From: Parasphingopyxis sp. CP4
GTDB lineage: Bacteria > Pseudomonadota > Alphaproteobacteria > Sphingomonadales > Sphingomonadaceae
DNA length: 64,000 bases
Direction of reading: 5' to 3'
NCBI RefSeq assembly: GCF_013378055.1
Contig: NZ_CP051130.1
Span: 62,001-126,000, forward strand
Positions 16,965 to 36,447 of this stretch are shown here, piece by piece (the stretch's first letter is position 1; each line of letters opens with the position of its first letter). The translations under genes were made by a program, and so were the position numbers. The notes beneath the pieces were generated by a model that had not been told where the DNA came from, did no database searches, and worked only from the letters and a program-made list of their open reading frames with translations.

Positions 16965-16984
16965 GTTTTTAAAGGAGGTCAATC

Positions 16985-19252: not shown

Positions 19253-19262
19253 AGCCCATAAA

Positions 19263-19281
19263 CCGGCACTGCAAATGCCGG
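19263..19281 (+). terminator. hairpin after rtcA
   Basis: CCGGCACTGCAAATGCCGG forms a six-base stem with a seven-base loop 10 bases after the rtcA stop. No T-run follows, so termination is only likely. Confidence 0.4.
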
Positions 19282-19323
19282 GGTGACGGTTCAGCAAGCC
19301 ACTGGCAATCAAAGGACACTTCA

Positions 19324-19776: not shown

Positions 19777-19941
19777 GACCTGCCTAATAGTGGGCCGCAT
19801 AGGAAGTTGAATTTCGGCTGCTTCGAGCTTGAAAGCGGTTGGAGATTGCTCGCCCATATGGGATGCGGCTTGGCATCGCGGTTTCGACGATGCATGCTTC
19901 TCGTCACGCTAGTCGCCATCGCCACGACTGAGAGTTTGATC

Positions 19942-21183
19942 ATGCCGAGCAAGATACTTCGCCCCATTTTATTGATCGCTGCTTTGATGATGCCAGCATC
20001 CGCCGTCGCACAGTCAGAAGGCCGAGGGGAAGAGTTGGTCGAAGATGTATGCGGCAGTTGTCACGGTACGAACCGCATGGCGAGAAGTTCCGGCTATACG
20101 CGTGAGGATTGGCGTGTTCTGGCGTCTACCATGGTTGATCTGTCCAGAAGTCCGGAAACCGAGGCGGAGATTCTCGACTATCTTGCAGCCACATATCCAC
20201 CCAGTGAAAACCGAGCCTCAACACCCGTAAATGGACCGCTGTCCATACGGTTTGAGGAGTGGCAGGTGCCGACTTTGGGGCAGCGGTCACGCGATCCGGT
20301 AGAGGCGCCTGACGGCAGCATTTGGTGGGTCGGTCAGTGGCTCGACATATTGGGCCGGCTGGATCCTGAAACCGGTGAGATGGAAGAGCATCGGTTGCCA
20401 GCCGGGGCGCGACCGCATTCGGTGACAATCGGGCCTGACGGAGCGGCATGGTACACCGGAAATCGCAACGCCACGATCGGTAGATTTGATCCTGCAACTG
20501 AGCAGATCACGGAGTTCGTAATGCCGGACGAGGCCGCACGCGATCCCCACACGGCAGAGTTCGACGCCAATGGAATTCTCTGGTTCAGCCTGCAGGGCAG
20601 CAACATGATCGGACGATTGGATCCGGCTACCGGCGAAGTCCGACTGATCCGGAGTCCCCGTGAGAGGTCGCGTCCCTATGGGGTGAAAATTGCAGCAGAC
20701 GGCACGATTTGGGTGGCCTGTAACGGGGCCAACTGTTTGTTGCGGGTCGATCCAGACACGATGGAGGTCACCGAAATCACTCTGCCTGAGCAAGGCACAA
20801 CGGTCAGGCGGCTCGATATCGATCGGGACGGACTAATCTGGTGGGTCAATTCGGGTCTGGGGCGCTTGGGGCGCTATAATCCGGAAAGTGGTGAAATCAC
20901 GGAATGGGCCTCCCCGAGCGGACCCAGTTCACACCCTTATGCGATTGCCGTTTTTGACGATGCGATCTGGTATAATGAAAGCGGCGTGCGCCCTGACATG
21001 CTGGTGCGGTTCGAACCGGAAACCGAGACCTTTCAAAGCTGGCCAATTCCTTCGGGACCGGTCTATGCGGGAATCCTTCGCCACATGCGAACCAGCCTGG
21101 ATGGCAGCGCATTGCTGATCCATCAAAGCGGCACAAACCATATTGCCAGGGTTACGGTCGACCGCACGGACGCGGCCCGCTGA
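19942..21183 (+). CDS. cytochrome c-streptogramin lyase-like propeller protein
   Basis: ATG 19942 starts a classic signal peptide (ILLIAALMMPASAVAQ); the upstream extension of the frame is ignored. The 413-residue secreted protein has one covalent haem motif C37-GS-C40-H41 in a short cytochrome c domain. A beta-propeller of roughly six repeats follows (GxIWxxxxxxxxIGRxDPxTGE type), as in virginiamycin B lyase (Vgb). The Vgb-like SHPYAIAV and IWYNESG segments with possible catalytic His and Glu are present. A role in antibiotic linearisation is doubtful here. A periplasmic haem-linked lyase or redox protein is an inference. Confidence 0.75.
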   Translation: MPSKILRPILLIAALMMPASAVAQSEGRGEELVEDVCGSCHGTNRMARSSGYTREDWRVLASTMVDLSRSPETEAEILDYLAATYPPSENRASTPVNGPLSIRFEEWQVPTLGQRSRDPVEAPDGSIWWVGQWLDILGRLDPETGEMEEHRLPAGARPHSVTIGPDGAAWYTGNRNATIGRFDPATEQITEFVMPDEAARDPHTAEFDANGILWFSLQGSNMIGRLDPATGEVRLIRSPRERSRPYGVKIAADGTIWVACNGANCLLRVDPDTMEVTEITLPEQGTTVRRLDIDRDGLIWWVNSGLGRLGRYNPESGEITEWASPSGPSSHPYAIAVFDDAIWYNESGVRPDMLVRFEPETETFQSWPIPSGPVYAGILRHMRTSLDGSALLIHQSGTNHIARVTVDRTDAAR

Positions 21184-21222
21184 GGGTTTGGCGACCTGAT
21201 TCCGTCTGACGACGGGATATCT

Positions 21223-22401
21223 TCAACGGACAGCCAGCGCCCGTATCACCCCGCGAATTTCCGCCAGGCCTTTCATTCTGCCAATGGCTGAATATCCGGG
21301 ATTGGTTGGGTGGTGGACATCATCGAGCATCAAATGGCCATGGTCAGGGCGGATGAAGATTTCGCTCTGTCCGGCGGCTTCATTGTCCAACAGTTGCGCA
21401 ATGATTGCGACCATATCGACGTCGCTGTCGAGATGGCTCGCTTCGAAGAAACTACGCTGGTTTTCGGGATCGCGTGTGACGCCGCGAAGATGCGCAAAGA
21501 ATATCCGATCTGCATAGCGATCTGCCATTTGAGGCAGATCATTATCGGGCCTGCTGCCATAGGTTCCGACACATAATGTCATACCGTTTGCCGGACTCGG
21601 AATATCGGCAAACAGCTTATCGAGATCATCCGCCGTGCAAATGATGCGGGGCAAGCCAAACATGTCCCATGGCGGATCATCCGGGTGGATGGCCAGTCGA
21701 ACGCCCGCTTTTTCTGCATGCGGTGTCACCCGTGCGAGAAAGGAATGGAGATTGCTCCTCAGGGTCGCGTGATCGATGCCGTCGTACCGGGCCAGCGCGG
21801 TTCTAAAGTCTTCGAGCGAATAGGCCTCTGTCATCTTCCCCGGCAAGCCGGCGATGATTGTTCGGGTCAGCTCGGCGATATTTGCCGCTGTCATCGACTG
21901 AAACTCACGCTCGGCCCGATCGATTTCTGCTGTAGTGTAATCCAATTGCGCATTGTCGCGTTTCAGAATGAACAGATCAAAGGCCGCGAACTGGTCTTGG
22001 TCGAAACGCAGCGCAAAGGCGCCGCTCGGCAACCGATATTTGAGGTCGGTCCTTGTCCAATCGATCACCGGCATGAAGTTGTAGCAGATTGTTGTGATAC
22101 CCTCGGCGGCAAGGTTTTCGAGCGTCGCAATCCAAGCATCGACATACTGATGATGCCCAGCTGCTGCACATTTTATGTCATCATGGACAGGGATGCTCTC
22201 GACAACGGTCCAGTGCAGCGGTGCTCGCGCGTTAGAACCATCCTCGATCAAAGCCTTGTGCGCAGCTATGGCTTCACGAGGCCAGACCGCGCCGATCGGC
22301 ACGTCATGGAGCGCGCTGACAATGTCCGTTGCGCCGGTTTGGCGAATGTCGTCCAGACTGACTGGATCATTGGGCCCAAACCATCGCCAGGATTCACGCA
22401 T
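21223..22401 (-). CDS. uxuA: mannonate dehydratase
   Basis: The 392-residue protein starts MRESWRWFGPNDPV, the typical UxuA opening. It contains ICYNFMPVIDWTRTDL, LAIHPDDPPW, CVGTYGSRPDND and IFIRPDHGHLM, which together form the UxuA TIM-barrel active site. It converts D-mannonate to 2-keto-3-deoxygluconate (KDG), the intermediate also made by the alginate genes on the other side of the locus. A GAGG ribosome site precedes the start. It follows the Nramp-like transporter by 15 bases and shares its transcript. Confidence 0.93.
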   Translation of the reverse strand: MRESWRWFGPNDPVSLDDIRQTGATDIVSALHDVPIGAVWPREAIAAHKALIEDGSNARAPLHWTVVESIPVHDDIKCAAAGHHQYVDAWIATLENLAAEGITTICYNFMPVIDWTRTDLKYRLPSGAFALRFDQDQFAAFDLFILKRDNAQLDYTTAEIDRAEREFQSMTAANIAELTRTIIAGLPGKMTEAYSLEDFRTALARYDGIDHATLRSNLHSFLARVTPHAEKAGVRLAIHPDDPPWDMFGLPRIICTADDLDKLFADIPSPANGMTLCVGTYGSRPDNDLPQMADRYADRIFFAHLRGVTRDPENQRSFFEASHLDSDVDMVAIIAQLLDNEAAGQSEIFIRPDHGHLMLDDVHHPTNPGYSAIGRMKGLAEIRGVIRALAVR

Positions 22402-22416
22402 GTCCTCGCCCTCCGT

Positions 22417-23682
22417 TCAGCTCGCCAGCATCACAAACAATCCCTGATATCCCATATAGCTGGTGATTAGGGAGAAGAGAAAAATCGCGATAAGTCCGCA
22501 ATTTGTCGCTGGGCGGAAACGATGTTCGCCCATCAGATCGTGGCGATTGCCCAGATAGACTATGCACGCGACTGTGAGCGGCAAGAGCACCACATTGAAG
22601 GCCTGAGATACTATCATCACGAACACTGGCCGGGCATCGAATAGCGGAACAACCAGGCCGAGCAATGAGATCAAAAGCACCATTATCCGATATTTCGGAA
22701 GGGTCATTTCGCGCGGTGCGTTCTGATAGTCGCACAACAGCCAGGGCAGCATCAGCACATTGGGAAATTGTGATGACACACCGGCCGCCACAATACCGAT
22801 GGCAAAGATTGAGACTGCAAACGCGCCCGCTAACGGTTCCAGCAAACTGATCATCTGGGATGGTCGATCGAGGCCGACCCCGGCAATATAGAGCGTGCCT
22901 GCGGCTGCCGACATTATTGCAGCGCTGATGACAAACATCATTATGGCCGCAAACAAGGCGTCTCGACGCTGTTGCCGTGCATCGCCGATCGTCCAGCCAG
23001 CTTCTTTTACAAGAGTCGTGCGAATGATGAACAAGCCGGAAAACAGAGTCGTCCCGACCATCGATGCGATCAGGAGGAGGGGGCCTCGGCCATCGCTTTC
23101 CGTGTCCGCGATATCTGGAACTGATGGAACAAGGCCGCTCACCATGTCTGCCAGCGGCGGCATCAGGATAAAAAAGTTCAAAACGAAGCTCGCCGCCATG
23201 ATCGCAACGATCACGGCCAGTGCGCGCTCAAATACTTGCGTGCGTCCATTCCAGAATATCAGATAGACAATGCCTATGAAGAGGGCGGCCCAATAGATGG
23301 GTGCAATTCCACCTTCGATGATTGTCTTGGACCATTCATAGCTGATTTCGGCGATGATCCCCATAACGCCCATCACGCTGCCACTGACACCAGCGGTGAG
23401 AGCAACAATGAAGAAAATCCCGATCGCCGGGTGAATATGACGGCGAAACGCCTGTAGGGCTGTTTCACCGGTGACCAGTGTGAACCGGCCATACGCGTTG
23501 ATCATCAGAAATGTTGCGACACAGGACAGCATAACTGTCCACAGCAATGACATACCATATGTAGCGCCCGCCTTTGCCATGGTTGTGACGCTGCCCGTGC
23601 CGATATTGAAGCCGAGCAGGAATATTCCGGGCAAAAACAATGGCACCCATGCAAATAATCGACGTCGAGCAACAATCGCCAT
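22417..23682 (-). CDS. Nramp-fold transporter lacking metal-binding residues
   Basis: ATG 23682 has a GGAGGA ribosome site. The 421-residue membrane protein of about 11 helices aligns with Nramp transporters (PGIFLLGFNIGTG, then GATYGMSLLW and LVTGETALQAF). The TM1 metal motif DPGN is replaced by GTGS, and the TM6 MPHN motif by FSGL (in GTTLFSGLFIIR). The Asp, Asn and Met ligands that bind divalent metal are therefore gone. Together with its place in an operon with uxuA and opposite an alginate-linked TonB receptor gene, this suggests a non-metal substrate, perhaps a uronate or other sugar acid. That specificity is inferred. Confidence 0.8.
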   Translation of the reverse strand: MAIVARRRLFAWVPLFLPGIFLLGFNIGTGSVTTMAKAGATYGMSLLWTVMLSCVATFLMINAYGRFTLVTGETALQAFRRHIHPAIGIFFIVALTAGVSGSVMGVMGIIAEISYEWSKTIIEGGIAPIYWAALFIGIVYLIFWNGRTQVFERALAVIVAIMAASFVLNFFILMPPLADMVSGLVPSVPDIADTESDGRGPLLLIASMVGTTLFSGLFIIRTTLVKEAGWTIGDARQQRRDALFAAIMMFVISAAIMSAAAGTLYIAGVGLDRPSQMISLLEPLAGAFAVSIFAIGIVAAGVSSQFPNVLMLPWLLCDYQNAPREMTLPKYRIMVLLISLLGLVVPLFDARPVFVMIVSQAFNVVLLPLTVACIVYLGNRHDLMGEHRFRPATNCGLIAIFLFSLITSYMGYQGLFVMLAS

Positions 23683-23718
23683 GAGTCCTCCGTGCGGAAG
23701 GTCCGCCTTAGTTGGTAT

Positions 23719-23733
23719 ATTGGTATGACCAAT
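23719..23733. promoter_or_regulatory. operator-like palindrome in the TonB receptor/Nramp divergent promoter
   Basis: ATTGGTATGACCAAT has six-base inverted arms, like GntR/FadR-family operators (ExuR/UxuR type TTGGT...ACCAA). A second copy-like stretch (CTGGTATGACAATTTT) precedes the PL6 lyase gene. The GntR gene at 27022 is the likely binder. Confidence 0.6.
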
Positions 23734-23759
23734 TTGGTGTAATAGGTGTGCAATATAGG

Positions 23760-23787
23760 TTGACATTTGTCCATGCCAGTCTACTGA
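23760..23787 (+). promoter_or_regulatory. sigma70-type promoter of the TonB receptor gene
   Basis: TTGACA at 23760-23765, a 16-base spacer, and TACTGA at 23782-23787, about 40 bases before the start codon. The operator-like palindrome lies just upstream. The PL6 gene has a promoter with the same -35 and spacer length. Confidence 0.5.
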
Positions 23788-23826
23788 CCCACCAAACAAA
23801 CAAGAAAAGGCGATGGGGAGTTTGCC

Positions 23827-26800
23827 ATGGGTTATTTGAACGGGGGCGTAGGCCTGACCGGAAAGAAATCACGTATTCTTGCGGGATTGCTGGCGGGATC
23901 AGCGCTGTCATTGGCGCATGGGACAGCCATCGCACAAACTGACGAATCGGTGCCAGAGGCGAACACTGGCGATGACGTGATTGTCGTCTCCGGCATCCGT
24001 GGTTCGCTACTCAGCGCTCTGAATGAGCAGCGGAATGCGGACAGCCTTGTCGAAGTCATCCAATCCGAAGATATCGGCAAGCTGCCAGATCAAAACCTCG
24101 CTGAGGTGCTGGAGAATATTACAGGCGTCCAGATTACCCGGACAGCCGGTGTCGGCACCGGGGTCCAGATCCGCGGTACCAACGAGAACCGGACTGAAAT
24201 CAACGGTGTCAGCGTTCTGTCTGCGGGCACGGGTCGCGGCGGTATCAACTTCGAAGATATCAACGCAGCGATCATTTCGTCGGTCGAAGTGATCAAGGCG
24301 CCGACGGCCGGAACAATTGAAGGTTCGGTTGGTGGCACCATCAATCTGCGGACGATCCGCCCACTTGATTTGCGGGACCGCTTGATCGCTGGACGTATTC
24401 AAGGTGAATATAGCGAGCTCTCTGAGAGCGTGACGCCGAGAATTTCAGCCAGTTTTGGCGACAATTGGGAAACCGGCACCGGCGATATCGGGTTTGTGCT
24501 GGCCGCAAGCTTTACCCAGCAGGAAGCAACGTCGTTCCGTCCTCGCGTCGACCGCGATACCCTCATCCCGGGTGGTGGATCGGTTACGGCTGCCGGGGCT
24601 CCGGGGCCGACCACGCCCTATCAGGGCATCCAGTTCCTGAACCAGGAACTCGAGAATTTCGAATATCAAACCTTCAACTTTGCGGGCTCTGTCGAATGGG
24701 CTCCGACCCCAGAACTGCGTCTCTATTTTGATGCATTTGTGAACAGTCAGGAGCGTCGCCAGGATAGTTCGCGTATTCAGGCGTCCGGCGTGAGCTCGCT
24801 CCGCTTTAACAACGTTCCCGATACGTTTGAGACGATCAATTATGGCACGCTCGACGGGGTAAATCTGGGTAGCATTCAAGCGGCCCTGACCGGCACCATC
24901 CAGCCAAATCTGGGCGTTGACGATGATGACCCGAACCTGCGCTTTTCGAGCGATACAGGTGCACGCATTACTGACAGCGATGTGTTTGTCGTTGGTGCGG
25001 ACTGGGAGAGTGGCCGGGCGCACTTGCGGGTAGAGGCGTCAACGTCAAATGCGGAGACGGTCAATCCGAATCTGAGCACGACGTTGAACTTTATCAACCC
25101 AAATCCGCTCACGCCTCTGGATGGCACGAGTAACGATAACAGCGTTCCGTTTATCTATGACCTTACCGGTGGAGCGCTTACCTTCGGTGTCGATTTCGCA
25201 TCGCCATTTGCGCCAACTGTCGCTGACCTTCTCAGCCCGAGCAATGTGGTGCTGGATGCTGTCACCGTTGGTCGCAATAGAACCGATAACAGTGAACAAG
25301 CCTTCCGGGTCGATTTTACATATGATTTCGAAGACCTAATCCCGGGTGTCACATCGGTCGACGTCGGCTATCGTTACAATAACAGTTCGAGCGTTTTTGA
25401 CCTGGTCCGTTCTACCTTCGGTACAGGTGCAATCGCGAACAGCCCAAATGGTTCGCTATTTGCTAGCCTGCTTGTCCCTGGACCCAGCAATTTTGGCGAT
25501 TTCGACGGCCGGACGCTGGCTTTCAGGAACTTCCTGCTGGTCGATCCGAACCAGGCCTTCTCCGATCCTACCGGAACATTGCGGACCTTGCAGGCTGCGC
25601 TGGATTCCACCCCTGGTGGTCAAGCTGCAATTGCTGGCGGTGGTCGATTGCTGCGTGATCCAACATCGGATCCGGCAGGCTTTTTCGACATCGAAGAGGA
25701 AACACATGCCTTGTATGGGCAGGTGAACTTCGAGTTTGGCCGTATCCGCGGCAATGTCGGGCTTCGCTGGGTCGATACGAGCATTAGTTCGTTGGGCAAC
25801 AATGTTGCCGCTGGCGTGGTTACGCCGGTAACGGCCGGCGGTAGCTACACCGAGCTGCTACCGCGCGTGAACGTGGTTGCAGACATTACTGACGATCTGG
25901 TCTTCCGCGCCAGCTGGACTGAAGATCTCAATCGTCCGGATTTCAATGATCTGTCTCTGTCGGTCAATTTCCCGACAGGACCGAACAATGCGGTTGCGCT
26001 TGGTAACCCGAATCTCGCACCGGAAACGGTGACGTCATTTGACGCGTCGCTCGCATGGTATTTCGCACCTGCGTCTGTGATCAGCGTCGGTGTCTTCCAT
26101 AAAGAGCGGTCGAGCCTGTTCGTTACGCAAGTCGAAGATGTTGCCTTGGATGCCAATGGCTTCCGCGACATCACGGCACCATGTGAAGGCGGCGGGATTT
26201 TCAATCCGCTGCCCGATCGCAACGTGCTTTCGAACATTCCTGGTAACGGTCTGTGCGTACCGCTTCAGACGATCATCAATGATACGGCCAATACCACCCA
26301 GACGGGTATTGAGGTCGCATTCCAATATGATCTGTCCCAGTTCGAGAGCGCGCTCGGCGGCTTCGGCTTCCTGTCCGGTTTCGGCGTGATAGCAAACTAT
26401 ACCTATCAGGACTTTAGCGGTGGTGAGGCGACGAACTCATCATCTTCTCGCGGGACACCGATTCTCGAAGCCAGCAGCGGCCTCACCGGTCCATTTACGG
26501 CGGTGCAGGGCCTGCTCGATTTCTCGCAGAACGCGTATAACGTAACGCTCTACTACGAGAAATATGGGATCTCCGCTCGGGCACGTTACACGTGGCGTGA
26601 TGCCTTCCGGACCCTGGATACGGCCGGTGGCGCTTCGCTCAACAGTACCTTGGGCTTCCCTGTCGTGACAGAATCGAGAGGACAGCTGAACGCCAGCATT
26701 TCCTACGATGTTACTGACTGGCTCAATGTCGGGGTGGAGGGCGTTAACCTCACCAAATCCCGGATCACCCAGTCTTGTGTGAACTCAGGCGCACAGCTGT

Positions 26801-26856
26801 GCTTCCAGGGTCTCCCGGATCGCCGGATTACGTTCGGTGCGAGCTTCCGGTTCTAG
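23827..26856 (+). CDS. TonB-dependent receptor, probably for alginate oligomers
   Basis: The 1009-residue outer membrane protein has a signal peptide (KKSRILAGLLAGSALSLA...AIAQ). A plug domain follows (about residues 50-180: IVVSGIRGSLLSAL, LPDQNLAEVLENITGVQI, VQIRGTNENRTEINGV), then a long 22-strand-type barrel ending in the C-terminal aromatic FGASFRF. This is the large Caulobacter/sphingomonad class linked to polysaccharide uptake. It lies directly before the alginate lyase cluster and shares its promoter pattern, so alginate oligosaccharides are the likely ligand. Confidence 0.92.
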   Translation: MGYLNGGVGLTGKKSRILAGLLAGSALSLAHGTAIAQTDESVPEANTGDDVIVVSGIRGSLLSALNEQRNADSLVEVIQSEDIGKLPDQNLAEVLENITGVQITRTAGVGTGVQIRGTNENRTEINGVSVLSAGTGRGGINFEDINAAIISSVEVIKAPTAGTIEGSVGGTINLRTIRPLDLRDRLIAGRIQGEYSELSESVTPRISASFGDNWETGTGDIGFVLAASFTQQEATSFRPRVDRDTLIPGGGSVTAAGAPGPTTPYQGIQFLNQELENFEYQTFNFAGSVEWAPTPELRLYFDAFVNSQERRQDSSRIQASGVSSLRFNNVPDTFETINYGTLDGVNLGSIQAALTGTIQPNLGVDDDDPNLRFSSDTGARITDSDVFVVGADWESGRAHLRVEASTSNAETVNPNLSTTLNFINPNPLTPLDGTSNDNSVPFIYDLTGGALTFGVDFASPFAPTVADLLSPSNVVLDAVTVGRNRTDNSEQAFRVDFTYDFEDLIPGVTSVDVGYRYNNSSSVFDLVRSTFGTGAIANSPNGSLFASLLVPGPSNFGDFDGRTLAFRNFLLVDPNQAFSDPTGTLRTLQAALDSTPGGQAAIAGGGRLLRDPTSDPAGFFDIEEETHALYGQVNFEFGRIRGNVGLRWVDTSISSLGNNVAAGVVTPVTAGGSYTELLPRVNVVADITDDLVFRASWTEDLNRPDFNDLSLSVNFPTGPNNAVALGNPNLAPETVTSFDASLAWYFAPASVISVGVFHKERSSLFVTQVEDVALDANGFRDITAPCEGGGIFNPLPDRNVLSNIPGNGLCVPLQTIINDTANTTQTGIEVAFQYDLSQFESALGGFGFLSGFGVIANYTYQDFSGGEATNSSSSRGTPILEASSGLTGPFTAVQGLLDFSQNAYNVTLYYEKYGISARARYTWRDAFRTLDTAGGASLNSTLGFPVVTESRGQLNASISYDVTDWLNVGVEGVNLTKSRITQSCVNSGAQLCFQGLPDRRITFGASFRF

Positions 26857-26902
26857 GTGCCGCACTGGCCGGCAACCGAATATGGGACGGTTGCTTTTGC
26901 GA

Positions 26903-26932
26903 CAGGCTTCGCTGTTACGACAGCGAAGCCTG
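26903..26932 (+). terminator. strong UACG-loop hairpin after the TonB receptor gene
   Basis: CAGGCTTCGCTGT and ACAGCGAAGCCTG form a perfect 13-base-pair stem closed by a TACG (UNCG-type) loop, 46 bases after the receptor stop. There is no T-run. Confidence 0.7.
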
Positions 26933-27021: not shown

Positions 27022-27762
27022 ATGAGCAGCAAGAGACTCTACCAATCTGTAGCCCAAAAGATCGGCAAGCTGATCGACGATGGCGTATATTCTCCCGGTT
27101 CTCGCTTACCGGGCGAACGGGAGTTGGCAGAACAGCTCGGCGTTAGCCGGGTGACAATCCGAGAGGCCGAGATCGCCCTTCAGGCTGTTGGGCGGCTCGA
27201 AATCAAGACTGGTTCAGGCGTATATGTGCGCGAGGCTCCAGCCGGAGATACCGAAAAATTGCCGACCGCCAGCGCGTTTGAGGTCACTGAAGCGCGATTA
27301 CTCGTAGAGTCTGAAGCTGCCGCCCTGGCGGCCCAGAACATCACGGATGAAGAGATTGAGCAGCTTGAACATCTTATTGATCTGATGGGTGAAGCCGATC
27401 ACGAAAGTGCAAATGAGGCAGATGAAGCCTTTCACCTGACCATTGCTAAAGCCTCCAACAATACCGCTCTGCTCCATAATATTACGTCCTTGTGGCGAAT
27501 GCGCGAAGATCTTCCCGATGTGAAGGCCACCTATGAAGCCGTGTGCGTAGACGACGCACAGATGCGGTCAGACGAACACCGCGCAGTGTTTGACGCATTG
27601 AAAGCCCGGGATTCTGCCGGCGCGCGCAGAGCCATGCGGGATCATTTTCACCGGTTAATCGAAAATATGCTGGACACCACCGAGCAGCAGGCTTTGGCCG
27701 AAGTCCAGAAACAGGCGACGGAAAGTCGTGAGCGTTTCCTCGCCGCGGCGAAGATGCGCTGA
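27022..27762 (+). CDS. GntR/FadR-family regulator of the uronate/alginate locus
   Basis: The 246-residue protein has a winged helix-turn-helix at about 10-70 (GSRLPGERELAEQLGVSRVTIREAEIALQ). A FadR-type FCD ligand domain follows, with the metal-binding Asp/His set expected (DEAFHLTIAKASNN, DEHRAVFDALKARD, RRAMRDHFHRL). Family members such as UxuR and ExuR respond to uronates. It sits between the receptor and lyase genes, and similar operator-like sequences precede both. Autonomous transcription is likely, because a hairpin separates it from the receptor gene. Confidence 0.88.
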   Translation: MSSKRLYQSVAQKIGKLIDDGVYSPGSRLPGERELAEQLGVSRVTIREAEIALQAVGRLEIKTGSGVYVREAPAGDTEKLPTASAFEVTEARLLVESEAAALAAQNITDEEIEQLEHLIDLMGEADHESANEADEAFHLTIAKASNNTALLHNITSLWRMREDLPDVKATYEAVCVDDAQMRSDEHRAVFDALKARDSAGARRAMRDHFHRLIENMLDTTEQQALAEVQKQATESRERFLAAAKMR

Positions 27763-27776
27763 GCCTAGCCAGACAA

Positions 27777-27873: not shown

Positions 27874-30129
27874 ATGTCTGTGAGGTTGCTCATTTGGCTG
27901 TTCGCGCTGTGCGCGTTGACGTCTCCCTTGCACGCAGAAGATCTTCTTGTCCGCAACCAGGATGAATATGCGCAGGCTCTGAGCCGGATTTCGGCGGGCG
28001 ATACAATTGTTCTGGCAGACGGTGAATGGCCGGATTTTGAAATGGCGGTGACCGGGTCAGGGCGAGCCGAGAGCCCGATTACCGTTCGGTCGGAAACGCC
28101 CGGCTCAGTCGTCTTGACGGGCCAGTCCAATCTCCGAATTGGCGGCGAGCATATTGTCGTTTCGGGGCTCGTTTTTCGGGATGGCTACAGCCCCACTGGC
28201 GATGTGATCGCATTCCGGCTGGACAGCGATACGCTCGCGAACAATTCGCGCGTTACGCAAACTGTCATCGACAATTTCAGCAAGCCCGATCGCAATGAGA
28301 CCGATTATTGGGTCGCGATCTATGGCAGCAACAACCGGTTCGACCACAATCATCTCGAGGGCAAAACCAATCGCGGTGTAACTTTGGCCGTTCGCCTGAA
28401 CACGGCGGAGAGCCGCAACAATAATCACCGGATTGACCATAATTATTTCGGGCCGCGGTCCGTCCTCGGCTCCAATGGCGGCGAGACGTTGCGGATCGGG
28501 ACGAGCCATTATGCAAGCTTCGATTCCAACACGATCGTTGAGAATAATGTCTTTGACCGGACTGATGGCGAGGTTGAGATTATTTCCGTCAAAGCCGGTG
28601 GCAATATCGTTCGCGGTAACCTGTTCCTGCGGTCGCGCGGTGCGCTGACCCTACGGCATGGCGACGGAAACCTCATTGAACACAATGTCTTCCTTGGGCA
28701 TGGCAAGGATCATACGGGCGGGATCCGGGTGATCAATCGCAATCAAACTGTCCGTGAAAACTATATGGAAGGCCTGCGCGGCTTTGGTTTTTCGAGCGCA
28801 ATGGCTGTGATGAACGGTGTGCCCAACTCACCGGCCAATCGGTACGTTCAAGTGCAGAACGCTCAGATAGAGCGCAATACTATTGTCGATAGCGCGACAA
28901 TCTCGCTCGGCACAGGCGCGGACGAAGAACGCTCCGCGCCGCCAGTCGACAGTCGGATGACGGCCAACGTTCTGGGTGGGATAGAGGATCAAACCTTTAT
29001 CGAAGTCGATTCCGATATTTCCGGAATTGAGCGTGCCGACAATGTCATCATTGCAGGTGAACTGGACCCGGCGCTTGCCGATATCCAGCGGGTCGAAACC
29101 GAAATGCACCGCGCGGACAACGGGCTTCTCTATCCGACAGATCCGGCACTTGGCGCTATTGGTGTGCCCGCTGATCTAACCGTCATCTCGCTCGAAGACG
29201 TGGGCGTTGATTGGTATGAGAAACCGGCGCCGGCACAGCTGTTTGCTTCCGGACGCGAGATCGAAGTTGCTGCGACCACGGCGGCTTTGCTCGAGGCAGT
29301 CGCACAGGCCGAGGACGGAGATGTCCTGGCGCTTGCACCGGGCCGCTATCAGGTAGATCGGACACTTGGCATTGATCGCGCGCTCACTTTTGTCGGCCGC
29401 ACTGGCGACGATGGCGAGCAGGCTGTTTTGACTTTCTCGCGCCCGTCGCTTTTCGAGATACAGCAAGGCGGGAATCTGCGGCTCCAATCTCTGGTGATCG
29501 ACGGGTCGGCATCTCCGGACTCAGTCGGCAATTCCGTCATTCGTACCGGCATTGCTCCGATCCGCGGGAATTTCGTACTTGAGCTCGAGTCCGTCAATGT
29601 CCGTGGCCTCACCGTCAATCGCGATTTCGACGTGATCTATCTCGGTCCCTCAACATTGGCAGACCGGATTCATATCACCAACAGTCTGTTTGAAGATATC
29701 ACCGGCACAGTCGTTTCCGCGGCCGCAGAAGCCGATGATCAAGGCCGTTACAATGTCGAATATCTCGATATTGAAAACTCTATCTTCCGAAATGTTCGTG
29801 GCGCTCTTGCTGAAGTGTATCGCGGGGGCAGAGATGAGAGCACATTCGGCCCGCATGTTTCCATTCGCCATTCGATCCTCGAGAATGTTGGCGAGGCAAG
29901 CGACCTGTCGTTGCGGCTTCACGGCGTTCAAGAGACCGCGATTAGCGAAAACCTGGTTACTGGATCGGCGGCTCTTGGCATCACCCATACGGTTGGCAAT
30001 CCCCGCACGGCGGTGCAGCGCAACGTCTTTACAGATACGCCAGAACCAGTCCTGACCGAGCTGATTTTCCCTGGGGAGCCCCGGGTCGAGATGCGTGACA
30101 ATGTGTTTAGCGAAAGTGAGAGCCAGTGA
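27874..30129 (+). CDS. PL6 family alginate lyase, two-domain
   Basis: The 751-residue exported protein has a signal peptide (LLIWLFALCALTSPLHAE) and two parallel beta-helix domains. The first domain carries the PL6 catalytic pair, Lys at about 240 (ISVKAGG) and Arg at about 261 (LTLRHGDG). They are 21 residues apart, exactly as K220/R241 in the alginate lyase AlyGC. The second domain (from about residue 420) gives the AlyGC-like two-tower form. It should cleave alginate by beta-elimination in the periplasm or at the surface. A chondroitinase B activity is less likely given the downstream genes. Confidence 0.92.
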   Translation: MSVRLLIWLFALCALTSPLHAEDLLVRNQDEYAQALSRISAGDTIVLADGEWPDFEMAVTGSGRAESPITVRSETPGSVVLTGQSNLRIGGEHIVVSGLVFRDGYSPTGDVIAFRLDSDTLANNSRVTQTVIDNFSKPDRNETDYWVAIYGSNNRFDHNHLEGKTNRGVTLAVRLNTAESRNNNHRIDHNYFGPRSVLGSNGGETLRIGTSHYASFDSNTIVENNVFDRTDGEVEIISVKAGGNIVRGNLFLRSRGALTLRHGDGNLIEHNVFLGHGKDHTGGIRVINRNQTVRENYMEGLRGFGFSSAMAVMNGVPNSPANRYVQVQNAQIERNTIVDSATISLGTGADEERSAPPVDSRMTANVLGGIEDQTFIEVDSDISGIERADNVIIAGELDPALADIQRVETEMHRADNGLLYPTDPALGAIGVPADLTVISLEDVGVDWYEKPAPAQLFASGREIEVAATTAALLEAVAQAEDGDVLALAPGRYQVDRTLGIDRALTFVGRTGDDGEQAVLTFSRPSLFEIQQGGNLRLQSLVIDGSASPDSVGNSVIRTGIAPIRGNFVLELESVNVRGLTVNRDFDVIYLGPSTLADRIHITNSLFEDITGTVVSAAAEADDQGRYNVEYLDIENSIFRNVRGALAEVYRGGRDESTFGPHVSIRHSILENVGEASDLSLRLHGVQETAISENLVTGSAALGITHTVGNPRTAVQRNVFTDTPEPVLTELIFPGEPRVEMRDNVFSESESQ

Positions 30130-32303
30130 AGAGGGCGCTGCCTCTCATTCTAGCAGCTGCAGCTTCGGCTGCGGCTGCGCCCGCTATTGCGCAAGATACG
30201 GCGCCGTCCGGGGCGGTACAGGCCCCGGATGTCCCGCCGCTATTCGCTGCCGAAACCGCAAGAGCGCGCGAGTTTGTCGATGAGATGATTGCTGCGGGGA
30301 TTACGGTCCCGGTTCCAGCAGATCCCGGTGGCGGTTACACGCATGAACAACATAAGCGCAATTTTCGCGCGATGTTTCTTGCAAGCCACCTTTACAATCT
30401 GAGCGACGATCAGCGTTATTTCGTCTTCGTACGTGACATGCTGCTCGAATATGCCGATCTCTACCCGACGCTTGAAGACCATCCCGCGCGCAGCAATCAG
30501 AATCCGGGTCGCCTGTTCTGGCAGGTGCTCAATGACGCGATGTGGCTGGTCCATGCGATCCAGGCCTATGAGGTTATCCGCGACGATCTGGATAGCGAGA
30601 GCCGCGATCGGATCGACAATGATGTCTTCCGTCGCGCAGCCCATTTCCTGTCCGTTGAATCCGAAGCAACATTCAACCGCATTCATAACCATGCGACATG
30701 GGCAACGGCTGCTGTCGGGATGACCGGCTATGTTCTCGGCGATGACGAGTTGGTCCGCCGCGCGCTTTATGGCACGCAAGGCGATGGTGAATCTGGCTTT
30801 CTGCGGCAAACCGAACTGCTCTTTTCGCCAGACGGATATTACACTGAAGGGCCCTATTATCAGCGATTTGCGCTGTTGCCGTTCATGGTTTTTGCTGGGG
30901 CGATTGAACGCAATGAACCGGAGCGGGCGATCTTCGAACATCGCGACGGCATTTTGCGCAAGGCGCTGCTGGCAACGATCCAGCTGACCTATGGCGGGTA
31001 TTTCTTCCCGTTCAACGACGCGATCCGGGACAAGAGTCTTAACACCGCCGAGCTCTATCAGGGCGTTGCAATCGGCTATTCGGTAACCCGCGATCCGAGC
31101 CTTCTCGGCATCGCTCAGTTCCAAAATCGAACGATGATCACGCCGGCCGGCCTTCAAGTCGCAGAAGCGATTGAACAGGGCCTTGCCGAGGAATTCCCAT
31201 TCCGGTCGATGGTCTTGCGAGATGGACCCAATGGTCAGCAGGGCGCGGTCGCAATCATGCGCAATGGGAGCGAGCCTGGTCATATGGCGCTGGTCGCCAA
31301 GAACGCCTCCCAAGGCATGGGTCATGGGCATTTCGATAAGTTGAGCTGGCAGCTCTATGATAATGGTCACGAGATCGTCCGCGACTATGGCGCCGCGCGG
31401 TTCCTGAACATCGAGGCCAAGGAAGGCGGCCGCTACCTGCCCGAAAACGAAAGCTGGGCGAAACAGACGGTGGCTCACAATACGCTGGTCGTTAATCAAC
31501 AGAGCCATTTCTATGGCGACCGCGACCTCGCGGACCAATCCGCGCCGACCCAACAATGTTTCGGCGTCGACGACGAATTGCAGTTCAGCGTCGCATCGAT
31601 TGATGACGCCTATCCCCGTGAAAGCGTAACGATGGAACGCATGCTGGCGATGGTCGAAATCGACGGTCTATCGGCTCCGATCGCCTTGGATGTCTTGCGG
31701 GCTCAAGGAGACGGCGCGCTCCAATTCGATCTGCCGCTGCATTATGCCGGTCATATCATGCGGTTAGGCTTCGATGTCGATCGCAACACGGCAGGCCGAC
31801 CGATCCTCGGCGATGCAAATGGGTATCAGCATATTTGGGTCGATGGCCGCGCCAGGCCTGACGGCGAACAGAGCCTGATGACCTGGCTGCTGGATGGCCG
31901 CTTTTACACCTATCGCTTTGTCCAGTCTGGCGAGCTTGAAGTCATTCTGGGTGAAACCGGCGCCAATGATCCTTCATTCAATTTGCGCCGCGAACCGATC
32001 GCGATCCAGCGCGTCAGCGGGACCGATCGCGCAACATTTGTGAGCCTGGTCGAACCGCACGGCCTTTATGATGGCGCGACCGAACAAACGATTGATAGCG
32101 ATAGTCAGATCGCATCACTGCACCACATTCGATCGGGGACCACTGACATTGCTGTGATCGAAACGATCACCGGCGCACAAGTCGCTGTCGCGGTGTCGTG
32201 GGATAGCAATGCTGAGGCCGAGCACAGCGCCACCGTCAACGGCCAAGAGCTACGCTGGCAAGGCTGTGTTGCCCGCATCTCGCTTTCTCGAGGGGAGAGT
32301 TAA
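30126..32303 (+). CDS. PL17 family oligoalginate lyase
   Basis: GTG 30126 overlaps the PL6 stop (GTGA). The 725-residue protein has a signal peptide (ending AIAQ), an alpha/alpha toroid (to about residue 330) and a heparinase II/III-like beta domain (from about 370, with GHGHFDKLSWQLYDNG). The active-site residues match PL17 Alg17c: N188-H189 (IHNHATW) and Tyr near 245 (GPYYQR), with the same His-Tyr distance as Alg17c. It acts from the chain end and releases unsaturated monouronate, which opens to DEH. Confidence 0.93.
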   Translation: MKRALPLILAAAASAAAAPAIAQDTAPSGAVQAPDVPPLFAAETARAREFVDEMIAAGITVPVPADPGGGYTHEQHKRNFRAMFLASHLYNLSDDQRYFVFVRDMLLEYADLYPTLEDHPARSNQNPGRLFWQVLNDAMWLVHAIQAYEVIRDDLDSESRDRIDNDVFRRAAHFLSVESEATFNRIHNHATWATAAVGMTGYVLGDDELVRRALYGTQGDGESGFLRQTELLFSPDGYYTEGPYYQRFALLPFMVFAGAIERNEPERAIFEHRDGILRKALLATIQLTYGGYFFPFNDAIRDKSLNTAELYQGVAIGYSVTRDPSLLGIAQFQNRTMITPAGLQVAEAIEQGLAEEFPFRSMVLRDGPNGQQGAVAIMRNGSEPGHMALVAKNASQGMGHGHFDKLSWQLYDNGHEIVRDYGAARFLNIEAKEGGRYLPENESWAKQTVAHNTLVVNQQSHFYGDRDLADQSAPTQQCFGVDDELQFSVASIDDAYPRESVTMERMLAMVEIDGLSAPIALDVLRAQGDGALQFDLPLHYAGHIMRLGFDVDRNTAGRPILGDANGYQHIWVDGRARPDGEQSLMTWLLDGRFYTYRFVQSGELEVILGETGANDPSFNLRREPIAIQRVSGTDRATFVSLVEPHGLYDGATEQTIDSDSQIASLHHIRSGTTDIAVIETITGAQVAVAVSWDSNAEAEHSATVNGQELRWQGCVARISLSRGES

Positions 32304-32304
32304 G

Positions 32305-32676
32305 ATGGTCGTTTTGAGCAGCAATAAGAGCGCGCGCTTTATCCATGCTGATGCAACGCCAGTTGAAGATCTTGGCGATGGGATCCGCCGGCAGTTACTG
32401 GGATACAACGACGATTTGATGGCCGTGCGGGTCTGGTTTGAAGAAGGCGCTGTCGGAGAGGCGCACACCCATCCGCACAGTCAAACCAGCTATGTCGAGA
32501 GCGGGCGCTTTCTCGTCACGATCGATGGCGAGGAATCGGAACTCGGCCCGGGCGATGGTTTTTTTGTAGCGCCGCATGAAATGCATGGCGCGGTGTGTCT
32601 GGAAGCTGGCGTGCTGCTGGACATGTTTAATCCCGTGCGCGCTGATTTTCTGGGCTTGGACGAGGCACAATCATGA
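32305..32676 (+). CDS. kdgF: KdgF-type cupin, linearises unsaturated uronates
   Basis: ATG 32305 directly after the PL17 stop gives 123 residues; the longer frame overlaps PL17 and is ignored. The protein is a single cupin with metal ligands in EAHTHPHSQ (H54, H56 and Q60) and HEMH (H91 or H94). KdgF speeds conversion of 4,5-unsaturated monouronates into linear ketouronate (DEH). It lies between PL17 and the transporter, as in many alginate loci. Confidence 0.85.
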   Translation: MVVLSSNKSARFIHADATPVEDLGDGIRRQLLGYNDDLMAVRVWFEEGAVGEAHTHPHSQTSYVESGRFLVTIDGEESELGPGDGFFVAPHEMHGAVCLEAGVLLDMFNPVRADFLGLDEAQS

Positions 32677-33944
32677 ATGGCAAACTACGGTGGCTGATTG
32701 TCAGCCTGGTCGCGCTTGCAACCATCATCAATTATATCGACCGCGGCGCACTGGGTTTCTTGTGGCCTGAGATTTCCAGCGAACTGGGCCTGACCGAGTT
32801 TGACTATGCGATCATCCTCAATGTGTTCACTTTCGCCTACGCCTTTGGTCAATCGATATTCGGCAAGATCTTCGACTGGATCGGAACGCGACTGGGCTTC
32901 GTCTTGTCAATCGCGGTTTGGTCCGCGGCGACCATGCTCCACGCCTTGGCAAGCGGACTGGCGAGCTTCGCTGTGTTTCGCGCGCTGCTTGGCTTGTCTG
33001 AAGCCGGCAACTGGCCTGGGGCGACCAAGGCCAATGCCGAATGGTTTCCGATCAAGGAACGCGCCTTTGCACAAGGGATATTCAATTCCGGTGCTGCGAT
33101 CGGCGGTATCGTCTCGGCGCCTATCGTTGCCTATCTCTTTGTCTTTCTCGGTTCCTGGCAAGCAACCTTCATCACCATAGGTGGGATTGGTTTTCTTTGG
33201 CTGGTGCCATGGCTGATCGTCTACAAAAGCGGGCCAGATGCGCACCCCTGGATTTCTGAGGAAGAGCGCCAGTTTATTCTCACCGGTCAGCGCAATACGG
33301 AAACCGACGAAGTCGCTAGTTATGCGCCGAGCACCAAAGAGATCCTCTCCCACAAAGAGAGTTGGGGCGTCATATTGGCGTCGGCCTTCCTCGATCCGAT
33401 CTGGTGGCTGTTTGTTGGCTGGCTGCCTATCTATCTTGCCAGCACCTATGGGTTCGGCGTTGCCGAGATCGGGCAATACGCCTGGGTTCCCTATGTCGGC
33501 GCAATGTTCGGTGCCTGGTTTGGCGGACTGTTGGCGCAGAACCGCATCAAGGCTGGCTGGTCCGTTAATGCGACACGCAAGGCGGTCATCAGCCTCGGCG
33601 GTGTGATCATGCTGGTCTCGCTCTTGGCGACGACACAGGCTGCGACGCCAATGTTCGCGGTGCTGCTCATGGCTGTGATCCTGTTCGGTTTCCAAACGGC
33701 GGTCGGGAACATCCAAACCCTTCCGAGTGATTATTTCAGCGGTGAATCCGTTGGTACCTTGGCAGGATTTGCCGGAACCGCCGCGAAACTGGCGGTTGTC
33801 GGACTCAATTTCTTGATCCCGGTGATCACCGTCAATTCATACGCACCGGCATTCGTTGTCGGAGCAGCGCTTGCAATTCTTACCGTTCTTTCAGTCCTGA
33901 TTTTCTGTCGGGACATAAAACCACTTCAACCAAATGCGGCCTGA
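32673..33944 (+). CDS. MFS transporter of the anion:cation symporter type (uronate/DEH)
   Basis: The 423-residue protein has about 12 helices. Typical ACS/hexuronate transporter motifs are NYIDRGALGF (helix 1), GLSEAGNWPGATKANAEWFP (helix 4 region) and RAFAQGIFNSGAAIGG. It overlaps kdgF by four bases. In this operon it most likely carries unsaturated uronate or DEH, or saturated uronate, across the inner membrane. Confidence 0.88.
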   Translation: MNGKLRWLIVSLVALATIINYIDRGALGFLWPEISSELGLTEFDYAIILNVFTFAYAFGQSIFGKIFDWIGTRLGFVLSIAVWSAATMLHALASGLASFAVFRALLGLSEAGNWPGATKANAEWFPIKERAFAQGIFNSGAAIGGIVSAPIVAYLFVFLGSWQATFITIGGIGFLWLVPWLIVYKSGPDAHPWISEEERQFILTGQRNTETDEVASYAPSTKEILSHKESWGVILASAFLDPIWWLFVGWLPIYLASTYGFGVAEIGQYAWVPYVGAMFGAWFGGLLAQNRIKAGWSVNATRKAVISLGGVIMLVSLLATTQAATPMFAVLLMAVILFGFQTAVGNIQTLPSDYFSGESVGTLAGFAGTAAKLAVVGLNFLIPVITVNSYAPAFVVGAALAILTVLSVLIFCRDIKPLQPNAA

Positions 33945-33980: not shown

Positions 33981-34739
33981 ATGACCAGACTAGCCGGAAA
34001 AGTGGCAATCGTGACCGGGGGTAGCCGAGATATCGGCCGCGCCGTCTGCGTCAAATTGGCCAGTGAAGGTGCCAATGTCGTCGTCAACTATTTCAACAGC
34101 GAAGAAGATGCTGAGGCCACACTTGCCGCGATTAGCAAGGCAGGCGGCGGTGCGGCTATCACGGTGAAAGGCGATATGACCAAGGCGGCCGATGTCGCTG
34201 CGCTGATTGATGCCAGTCGAGAGGCGTTTGGCGATGCCATCCATATCCTCGTCAATGTCACTGGCGGTCTGGTTGAGCGGCGGACTATCGAAGAAATGGA
34301 CGAGGAATTTTTCAACTATGTCATGCAGTTGAATACAACCTCCACATTCCTCGCGACCAAGGCAGTCGTGCCGCACATGCCAGAGGGCGGTGCGATCGTG
34401 AACCTGGCCTCTCAGGCGGGTCGCGATGGCGGTGGGCCAGGAGCGTCCGCCTATGCCGCGTCAAAAGGCGCAGTGATGACCTTTACCCGCGGTATGGCAA
34501 AAGAGCTGGGGCCGCGCGGCATTCGCGTCAATGCCCTGTGTCCTGGCATGATCGCGACGACATTTCATGATCGTTTCACAAAAGACGAAGCGCGCCAGAA
34601 CACGGCAAATGCAACACCATTGCGTCGGCAGGGACGGGCAGAAGAAACGGCGGATGCCGTCGTCTATCTTGCCTCGGACGAGGCATCGTTCATCACGGGT
34701 GCGAATGTCGACATTAATGGCGGCCTCGCTTTCTCCTGA
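33981..34739 (+). CDS. SDR oxidoreductase, probable DEH reductase
   Basis: The 252-residue short-chain dehydrogenase has the cofactor motif TGGSRDIG and the catalytic residues S144, Y158 and K162 (YAASKGA). The N-terminal strand end NYFNSEE hints at NADPH or NADH choice but does not decide it. In alginate loci such SDRs reduce 4-deoxy-L-erythro-5-hexoseulose uronate (DEH) to KDG. A KDPG aldolase gene follows, which fits. Confidence 0.88.
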   Translation: MTRLAGKVAIVTGGSRDIGRAVCVKLASEGANVVVNYFNSEEDAEATLAAISKAGGGAAITVKGDMTKAADVAALIDASREAFGDAIHILVNVTGGLVERRTIEEMDEEFFNYVMQLNTTSTFLATKAVVPHMPEGGAIVNLASQAGRDGGGPGASAYAASKGAVMTFTRGMAKELGPRGIRVNALCPGMIATTFHDRFTKDEARQNTANATPLRRQGRAEETADAVVYLASDEASFITGANVDINGGLAFS

Positions 34740-34757: not shown

Positions 34758-35423
34758 GTGAATTTGCGCACTGAACTTGATCAACGGCTCGCCGCGACAC
34801 CGGTAATACCCCTCATCTCGGGCGACGATCCAATGATTGCCGTGGAGACGGCCAAAGCACTGCAGGAGGGCGGACTCTCGGTCATCGAAGTCGTCATGCG
34901 AAGCGATGCGGCGCAAGACTGTATGGAAGCAATCATTGCAGAGACACAGGATGTGATAGTCGGCGCCGGAACGGTGCTGACGCTTGATCAAGCACAGTCA
35001 CTGCATGCGAGCGGTGCGGCGTTTATTGTCTGTCCGGGCTTGGTCGATGAAATCGCGCGCTACTGCATCGATCAGGACATCCCAGTCTATCCTGGAACCA
35101 TGACTGCGGGCGAGGTGCAACGTGCCTATGCTTTGGGATTGCGGGATGTGAAATTCTTCCCCGCAAGCTTGGCGGGAGGAGTGCCAATGTTGCGCGCGCT
35201 CGGCTCCGTCTTTCGTGAGATGCGGTTCATGCCAACCGGTGGAATCAGCGCAGAAAACCTGTCCGACTATCTAGCATTGCCGCATGTGCTGGCGTGCGGC
35301 GGCAGTTGGCTGACGCCGCGGGCGGCGGTCGATAGTTGCGAGTTCGGGACCATCAAGAAACTCGCGCGCGAGGCTGCGGCAATAGCCGCGCGATCGCGAG
35401 GCAAGGAGCAAGACAATGGCTGA
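34758..35423 (+). CDS. eda: KDPG aldolase (2-dehydro-3-deoxyphosphogluconate aldolase)
   Basis: The 221-residue class I aldolase has a GTG start. It shows [12 protein letters not shown] (E44, R48), [15 protein letters not shown] and the Schiff-base Lys K132 in RDVKFFPAS. It splits KDPG to pyruvate and glyceraldehyde-3-phosphate. It overlaps the kinase gene by eight bases, giving the last two steps of alginate breakdown. Confidence 0.92.
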
Positions 35424-36447
35424 ATTTCTGTCATTCGGTGAGATCATGTTGCGGCTAAAGACACCGGGCTATGAGCGCTTCTTTCAGTCGCCGGCATTCG
35501 AGGCAACCTTTGGCGGCGGTGAAGCAAATGTGGCGGTGGCGCTAAGCAATTATGGCCTAGATGCCGGATTTGTCAGCGCCTTGCCGGACAATGATATCGG
35601 CGAAAGCGCGATTGCCGAATTGCGCAAATTTGGCGTTGATACACAGCATGTCAGCCGCTCTGGCGACCGGGTCGGAATCTACTTTCTGGAAACCGGTGCA
35701 AACCAACGGCCTTCCAAGGTGGTCTATGATCGCGCACATTCGTCGATCGCCATGGCTGGCCCGGATGAGTTTGATTGGGCCGCCATATTCTCCGGCGCAA
35801 AATGGTTGCACATTACCGGCATCACGCCAGCGTTGAGCGAAAGCGCGGCGGAACTCAGCATGGATTGTGTAAAGGCCGCCAAGGCTGCCGGATTGACGGT
35901 ATCCTGCGACTTTAATTTTCGCGGCAAGCTTTGGAAATATGGGAAGAGCGCGCCCGAGGTGATGAGTGAACTCGTCAAACATGTTCATGTCGGCATCGCC
36001 AATGAGGAAGACTGCCAAAAGTCACTCGGGATTTCAGTGGATGTCGATGTGGAATCAGGTGAGCTCGACACGGCCAAATACGAGGCGCTCTCGCAGAAGG
36101 TTCTCGATATCTATCCGGAGATGGAGGCTATCGCGATTACGCTGCGGGAAAGCCTCAGCGCCGACCGTAACAATTGGTCGGCCTGTCTTCGTGATCGAGA
36201 GGGCGGCTTCAAGCTTTCGCGGCGCTATGAAATGACCGACATTGTTGATCGTGTCGGCGGTGGTGACAGTTTTGCTTCGGCGTTGATCTATGGCCTGAAC
36301 GCCTATGACGACCGTCAGAAGTCGCTGGAATTTGCTGTAGCCGCGAGTTGTCTCAAACATTCAATTTCAGGCGACTTTAATCGCGTTTCCGTTCCTGAAG
36401 TGGAAAAATTGATGGGCGGCGATGGTTCGGGTCGGGTACAGCGGTAA
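35416..36447 (+). CDS. kdgK: 2-keto-3-deoxygluconate kinase (PfkB family)
   Basis: The 343-residue protein has the PfkB signatures: an N-terminal FGEIMLRL and FGGGEANVA, and a C-terminal [12 protein letters not shown] anion hole with the catalytic Asp. It phosphorylates KDG from the SDR step and from mannonate dehydratase. It is the last gene of the alginate operon; 110 bases follow before ppc. Confidence 0.92.

Follow-up and report, generated by a model that had tools for sequence, protein, structure and literature searches.

The window, a 64 kb stretch of the Parasphingopyxis sp. CP4 genome, raises the question of what a transporter of the Nramp fold (P0001) carries when its gene lies beside a D-mannonate dehydratase gene in an alginate locus. 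Because key metal residues are absent from P0001 and uronate genes adjoin this type of transporter gene in many marine bacteria, P0001 is probably a sugar-acid importer. Our favoured reading, which we hold with more confidence than doubt but well short of certainty, is that it imports a sugar acid of the mannuronate branch, either D-mannuronate or D-mannonate. The fold, the absent ligands, the linkage to UxuA and alginate genes over many taxa and the different linkage of the sister clade are observations; transport, substrate, direction and coupling are inferred.

The coding sequence of P0001 (421 amino acids from an ATG) lies on the minus strand, and the plus strand of the same interval contains many stops when read. 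The uxuA gene follows 15 bp downstream on the same strand, while a 144-bp gap separates the P0001 gene from a divergent TonB receptor gene, beyond which the alginate genes lie. The two-gene unit divergent from an alginate-linked receptor, as described in the first-pass annotation, is therefore present as stated (TIGR00695, TIGR01782). The features of the locus are as follows.

21223..22401, minus strand: uxuA, D-mannonate dehydratase (TIGR00695, 480.9 bits, cut-off 199.55; Pfam UxuA, 384.6)
22417..23682, minus strand: P0001, Nramp-fold transporter (Pfam, alignments, AlphaFold)
23683..23826, no strand: divergent promoter region containing the near-palindrome ATTGGTATGACCAAT (23719-23733)
23827..26856, plus strand: TonB-dependent receptor, TonB-Xanth-Caul (TIGR01782, 509.1 bits, cut-off 310)
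27022..27762, plus strand: GntR/FCD regulator (best NCBIfam models ExuR, LldR and UxuR, all far under cut-off)
27874..30129, plus strand: Chondroitinase B family lyase (Pfam Chondroitinas_B, 342.5 bits), presumably of PL6 type
30126..32303, plus strand: oligoalginate lyase (NF042990, 957.7 bits, under cut-off 1400; Pfam domains Hepar_II_III_C, Alginate_lyase and Alg17C_C), which we take to be of PL17 type
32209..32676, plus strand: cupin (Pfam Cupin_2), assumed to be KdgF-like, its true start probably further in than the ORF start at 32209
32673..33944, plus strand: MFS transporter (Pfam MFS_1; TIGR00893, 238.3 bits, under cut-off 395)
33981..34739, plus strand: SDR oxidoreductase, DEH reductase role inferred
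34758..35423, plus strand: KDPG/KHG aldolase (Pfam Aldolase, 202.6 bits)
35416..36447, plus strand: PfkB kinase (Pfam PfkB, 106.1 bits), KDG kinase role inferred

Together, the gene set beyond the receptor and the P0001/uxuA pair constitute an alginate catabolism locus, in which the MFS transporter is a second, separate uptake system. No metal-related gene was recognised adjoining P0001. Elsewhere in the window, positions 15055-19249 hold an RNA repair set in which the regulator RtcR is encoded on the minus strand and RtcB and RtcA on the plus strand; a protein of a WapI-like immunity family comes next (19324-19776). The protein at 19807-21183 has a propeller of the virginiamycin-B-lyase type, and inspection of its translation by eye showed a CxxCH-like motif close to the N-terminus.

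The near-palindrome ATTGGTATGACCAAT is a possible, though weak, candidate for the operator of the FCD/GntR regulator. The 9-mer TGGTATGAC occurs twice in the 64 kb, upstream of the P0001 gene and of the lyase gene (0.12 expected); it was chosen after a search for shared words, and around 0.2 shared 9-mers are expected by chance between two such regions. A conserved operator was rejected, as matches with at most three mismatches were found upstream of 5 of 34 relatives against around 3.5 expected in random stretches. A 13-mer with three mismatches was likewise at background (14 found, 10.35 expected).

By descent P0001 belongs to the Nramp fold family, but by motif it lies outside the metal-transporting SLC11 group. 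Its residues 32-389 match Pfam Nramp (PF01566) at 190.8 bits, above the cut-off of 29.8. The broad NCBIfam model NF037982 (Nramp family divalent metal transporter) is also passed (63.7, cut-off 50) over residues 18-192 only, and the name of that family is no test of function; the MntH model NF001923 (73.8 versus a cut-off of 430) and TIGR01197 (28.9 versus 272.5) are not met. An AlphaFold model built with 57 family sequences as input (pLDDT 90.4, pTM 0.89) has unwound TM1 and TM6, with helix breaks at residues 27-28 and 213-214, and so meets the LeuT-type Nramp fold. Solved Nramps rank first among the structures compared with it, the best match being DraNramp (6d91; Z 44.6, rmsd 2.6 over 388 residues). 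The structure prediction that had been proposed as a check on P0001 thus returned an Nramp fold.

We collected relatives of P0001 in a single scan of GTDB contigs with two patterns; 272 stretches matched, 173 were confirmed and 80 were kept. These comprise group A, 34 loci with 59-81% identity to P0001 from Alpha- and Gammaproteobacteria, Bacteroidota, one Raymondbacteria and one Pirellulaceae, and its sister clade, group B, 46 loci with 39-45% identity from Bacteroidota, KSB1 and Calditrichota. P0001-like proteins are rare elsewhere: at a threshold of E 1e-60, a profile search found them in 2 of 349 Pseudomonadota genomes, and in a sample of the class a close match occurred in 1 of 385 genomes, the window's own, with 11 of 385 reaching 1e-10. 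In a 52-row tree, group A was held together with support of 99/97 and group B with 100/100; group A grouped with a relative from E. coli (99/97), and both groups, this relative and a diverged GTGS protein (L137) were united at 100/100. This tree and a wider one of 44 rows are both unrooted and have long branches.

Metal-site residues were mapped in a multiple alignment with E. coli MntH, with which HMMER alignments to solved Nramps concur. In TM1, MntH D34 and N37 correspond to G28 and S31 of P0001, so that DxxN reads GxxS (DPGN versus GTGS), and in TM6 M209 corresponds to F214 and AxxM reads TxxF. Both TM6 histidines are replaced, H211 by G216 and H216 by R221; the HMMER alignment places MPH..H opposite FSG..R, within the P0001 segment GTTLFSGLF..R. 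Retained are the TM10 glutamine (Q353 in MntH, Q360 in P0001) and MntH E154 and D238. The TM3 acids E102 and D109 align with T96 and V103 in one alignment, a pairing that is less sure because TM3 aligns otherwise in another. Judged by the SLC11 signatures, the TM10 glutamine is met, but TM1 DxxN is not (GxxS in all 35 group A rows, that is 34 loci plus the window), nor is TM6 A/CxxM (TxxF in 33/35 rows, TxxS in 2/35), nor the two TM6b histidines of the H+ path. The NRMT (Mg2+) signature DxxG-TxxA/T is not met either, P0001 having GxxS-TxxF without Asp. Because the Asp and both TM6 histidines are replaced, the second by Arg, it seems unlikely that coupling runs through the proton path known from Nramps.

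Every row of group A (35/35) and of group B (46/46) has G28 and R221, an invariance that speaks against chance, and R221 is also Arg in the E. coli relative and in four further members, L136, L137, L150 and L151. K37 is Lys in both groups and in the E. coli relative, and another residue in L150 and L137. The invariance of S31 and K37 arises partly by construction, because the scan pattern GS[VI]TTMAK spans residues 30-37; G28, F214 and R221 lie outside it and are hence unconditioned. Seven group A rows read TAMAK and were therefore retrieved by the other scan pattern, and GTGS recurs in L136, L137, L150 and L151, which came from profile or Pfam searches without that pattern. The reading by eye in the first-pass annotation, with GTGS for DPGN and FSGL for MPHN, was thus correct in both kinds of alignment, and a tree with mapped TM1 and TM6 residues, as it had proposed, resolved GTGS-type clades with invariant G28 and R221. 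Its phrase 'all metal ligands' was a slight overstatement, since Asp, Asn and Met are gone but the TM10 Gln is kept, and 'lost' is unproven and is better read as 'lacks'.

These residues bear on a first alternative, namely that P0001 is still a divalent metal transporter whose rebuilt site, by analogy with the Mn2+ role argued for YcsG of Bacillus subtilis, supplies the metal of UxuA, an enzyme that requires Mn2+ or Fe2+. The retained TM10 Gln and the passed NF037982 model fit such a role, and the window genome has no other Nramp above the Pfam cut-off. In addition, the accessible text of PMC8806188 describes an EcoDMT triple site mutant that still transported Mn2+, and Mn import is reported for YcsG, whose gene accompanies pxpABC (PMC10448178, available part), so that metal transport is compatible with organic-acid genes nearby. 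Nevertheless, TM1 Asp is Gly in every row of both groups, with Asn and Met gone too, while mutation of this Asp strongly compromises transport according to the same portion of PMC8806188. Moreover, a comparison of window positions 18000-37000 with Rfam, which covers metal riboswitches, gave no match at threshold. We consider metal transport improbable.

Gene context provided the second line of evidence. UxuA was found in 25 of the 34 group A loci and in none of the 46 group B loci (Fisher p 1.4e-13, kinship ignored); the counts are not independent trials, because the loci are related and some are shortened by contig ends. It is directly adjacent in 21 group A loci (9 downstream and 6 upstream in the same orientation, and 6 upstream in the divergent orientation), and one of the four loci with a non-adjacent UxuA is cut by the locus end. 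The group A copies split into two lineages, whose identities to the UxuA of the window are 64-76% and 47-50%. Two further GTGS members from a Sphingomonadaceae-level sample (L150 and L151, the latter probably from the same genome as L052) both have UxuA adjacent. Alginate lyase clusters occur in 13 of the 34 group A loci, and the other clusters are PMI-like (8 loci), ManD (4), mannitol-dehydrogenase-family (4) and AGE (3). ManD, a mannonate dehydratase unrelated to UxuA, exceeds its cut-off in L048 (674.4 versus 550). At least one of UxuA, ManD and the PMI-like, mannitol-dehydrogenase-family and AGE-family genes is present in 31/34 loci; because this list was made after seeing the clusters, UxuA alone, known from the window beforehand, serves as the test. 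The linked clusters are absent from three of the 34 loci (L054, L079 and L080); an AGE match in L079 is distant, and L080 carries an aldose epimerase gene. A clade with no link to uronate genes in other genomes would have refuted the original proposal, but the link was found in the close relatives.

Group B has other partners. NagA-like or NagB-like genes are found in 38/46 of its loci, directly flanking the transporter on both sides in 32/46, and in none of the 34 group A loci. In L114 the two score 221.3 and 143.4 bits, under the NCBIfam cut-offs of 225.65 and 236.9. Besides these flanks, group B loci (L086-L127, for example L114:6659-9959) often carry two Gfo/Idh/MocA genes. The group B transporter is possibly an amino-sugar carrier. 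The uronate link is thus limited to the close clade, while sister clades carry other, sugar-specific partners that metal supply leaves unexplained, and we read groups A and B as two sugar pathways. An assignment of R221 as the arginine that binds a carboxylate would be unspecific, because R221 and K37 are also present in the NagA/NagB clade, whose substrate is likely not an acid.

The gene sets of some relatives suggest a pathway. In L136, from genome G834 and found in a separate profile search, genes for a mannitol-dehydrogenase-family reductase, UxuA, the transporter and a PMI-like protein lie in a row; its UxuA is 76% identical to that of L064, and its PMI-like protein is 67% identical to a cluster in which L066 scores 99.2 bits against ManA (cut-off 116.2). 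These genes plausibly form a complete route from D-mannuronate to D-fructuronate (isomerase), D-mannonate (reductase) and KDG (UxuA). The conversion of mannose to fructose has the same stereochemistry as that of mannuronate to fructuronate, a parallel that we infer from established sugar chemistry. In L070 the isomerase, reductase and transporter occur together with no UxuA nearby. The reductase matches the D-arabinitol 4-dehydrogenase model a little better than the fructuronate reductase model, with both scores under cut-off, and the PMI-like, mannitol-dehydrogenase and AGE assignments all fall under NCBIfam cut-offs. Genome G834 also encodes the diverged second GTGS protein (L137:9075-10391) between an SDR gene and a GntK-type gluconokinase gene (151.8 bits, cut-off 113.75), and a PL6-like lyase gene adjoins this region.

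Such assignments leave room for import of an uncharged brown-algal sugar or polyol (mannose, fructose or mannitol) instead of a uronate. Substrates of this kind would suit the neighbouring PMI-like, AGE (D-mannose isomerase-like) and mannitol-dehydrogenase-family enzymes, the nearest curated models being ManA, D-mannose isomerase and D-arabinitol 4-dehydrogenase, and NagA/NagB-like sugar genes accompany more remote relatives. However, UxuA, which acts on D-mannonate, is the commonest of the partners and the sole one in the window, the ManD clusters represent a second mannonate dehydratase, and alginate lyases are linked as well; a neutral substrate therefore seems unlikely to us, without being negligible.

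For a sugar acid as substrate, the known glucuronate route offers a reference: UxuB and UxuA take fructuronate to mannonate and then KDG (PMC6353982, available text). The window genome has no member of the Mannitol_dh, UxaC or AGE families, and its PMI-like match is partial (34%), so that no mannuronate-to-mannonate steps are apparent in it. With UxaC and Mannitol_dh absent, the classical glucuronate pathway was rejected for this genome, and because AGE is missing too, the candidate substrate there is D-mannonate itself, or else mannuronate handled by enzymes that escaped recognition. Of the substrates originally named, mannonate or fructuronate fit; D-mannuronate, which was not among them, best fits the gene sets of the relatives. 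Recruitment of the Nramp scaffold for an organic acid such as a uronate, as first inferred, is supported by comparative genomics, without transport data.

On this evidence, P0001 would be a secondary transporter of the Nramp (LeuT) fold whose central site takes a six-carbon sugar acid and not a divalent metal. It may bring D-mannuronate, or the D-mannonate formed from it, through the inner membrane; mannonate would then be converted by UxuA to KDG, which the neighbouring KDG kinase and KDPG aldolase are predicted to finish. The MFS transporter would take the lyase product DEH, and P0001 the saturated uronate or aldonate left by the lyases. That P0001 might instead work as an exporter, or serve the alginate system as a sensor-like protein without transporting anything, has nothing direct in its favour, although sequence does not reveal coupling and an MFS transporter is already present in the locus; catabolic neighbours, the adjoining TonB receptor, an intact LeuT-fold architecture and conservation over distant taxa fit uptake, and we give this possibility very little weight.

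How the metal site came to differ is less clear. Asp-less Nramps form several clades in our unrooted trees. The Asp state requires one change in the 52-row tree, where the Asp-bearing side has support of 88/75, and two in the 44-row tree, where the 12 Asp-bearing rows, along with a single Glu-bearing one, make up a set of 13. Midpoint rooting of the 44-row tree nests this set among Asp-less lineages linked to genes of the uronate, NagA/NagB, 5-oxoproline and hydantoin types. Gain and loss of Asp cannot be distinguished, because the trees are unrooted and have long branches. That Nramps are mainly organic-solute transporters, with divalent-metal transport as one derived branch, so that the ancestors of P0001 never had a metal site, is a speculative proposal that we rate as doubtful, if conceivable.

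We found no printed account of a uronate-linked Nramp-fold carrier in a search limited to open-licence PubMed Central. A supplementary legend of PMC6431674, in the portion available, lists 'Nramp, metal-ion transporter' among the genes of Alteromonas alginolytic systems; its kinship to the P0001 clade is unshown. If sugar-acid import by P0001 is correct, a textbook metal-transporter family also holds sugar-acid and probably amino-sugar carriers, and a candidate is at hand for the uptake of saturated uronates in marine alginate breakdown. Automatic annotation would then mislabel such carriers as 'divalent metal transporter', as in 546 E. coli genomes. The TM1 Asp is called universally conserved in SLC11 in the accessible part of PMC8806188, whose tree was built from DMT1, EcoDMT, ScaDMT, NRAT and NRMT queries; that universality would be broken. 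P0001 would also complement PxpT as a second line of support for the uptake of organic compounds by the Nramp fold, and clades differing at known positions would make the direction of metal-selectivity evolution testable.

Among known systems, the metal Nramps (MntH, DraNramp and DMT1) share with P0001 the Pfam family, the LeuT fold and the TM10 Gln, but P0001 has GxxS for DxxN, TxxF for A/CxxM and replaced TM6 histidines. The sites of NRMT (Mg2+) and NRAT (Al3+) depart from DxxN-A/CxxM as that of P0001 does, and TxxA/T of NRMT shares its TM6 Thr (PMC8806188, as far as available); both keep the TM1 Asp, where P0001 has Gly. The E. coli relative (L047:5944-7173) is 53% identical to P0001, has GTGS and the TM6 Arg and forms a sister clade (99/97); unlike P0001, it is encoded with CoA-transferase, enoyl-CoA hydratase and FAD-oxidoreductase partners, and another organic acid is therefore likely. 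In strain SK1144 it lies between dnaB and qorA with a LacI gene and is annotated as an Nramp divalent metal transporter, and the type occurs in 546 of 5426 complete E. coli genomes. A copy split into two ORFs (L044:11893-13172) was seen on a so-called E. coli plasmid (CP054241.1, pBone7_3) that carries dnaB, alr, tyrB and dusA and is probably a mislabelled piece of chromosome. Group B shares GTGS and the TM6 Arg and differs in its TM6 segment GTTCSAAVF and its amino-sugar type partners.

A further comparison is with PxpT/YcsG, which like P0001 are annotated as Nramps and encoded with organic-acid enzymes. Nramps of pxpAB-type operons (not the YcsG/PxpT sequences themselves) also lack Asp, Asn and Met (GPGT, TTxV) but form a separate clade (99/95), have GPGT, keep the TM6 His and have PxpA/PxpB instead of UxuA as partners; the PxpT/YcsG-type test (pxpA/pxpB partner, GPGT site) is thus not met by P0001. 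In a census of Nramps (66 rows from 79 loci, 13 loci being left out, with flanks of around 1.4 or 4 kb), 12 of 18 GPGT-type proteins lay beside PxpA or hydantoinase B homologues versus 0 of 37 Asp-bearing ones, which partly had shorter flanks. This is indicative only, because of the dropped loci, the choice of loci from search lists instead of at random and the short flanks; the neighbours in L026, L029, L030 and L035 were checked by HMM. Eight GAGD/GxGD-type proteins and one GVSH protein had no such neighbour within the census flanks. In L029, L030 and L035, GPGT Nramp genes directly precede LamB_YcsF (PxpA-type) and CT_C_D (PxpB-type) genes and are candidate 5-oxoproline carriers, and haloarchaeal GPGT proteins are annotated beside hydantoinase/oxoprolinase genes. 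No named PxpT was found among the plasmid-borne relatives from the neighbourhood of Neorhizobium, Shinella, Haematobacter, Alicyclobacillus and Haladaptatus. In the available text of PMC10448178, YcsG is concluded to be a Mn2+ importer and its 5-oxoproline role is questioned, with polar effects possible; according to the accessible part of PMC13274462, Corynebacterium glutamicum needs pxpT for growth on 5-oxoproline, and its authors cannot exclude metal transport. By analogy, the 5-oxoproline growth genetics of PxpT/YcsG (PMC13274462, same part) may serve as a precedent for the uptake of organic compounds by the Nramp fold.
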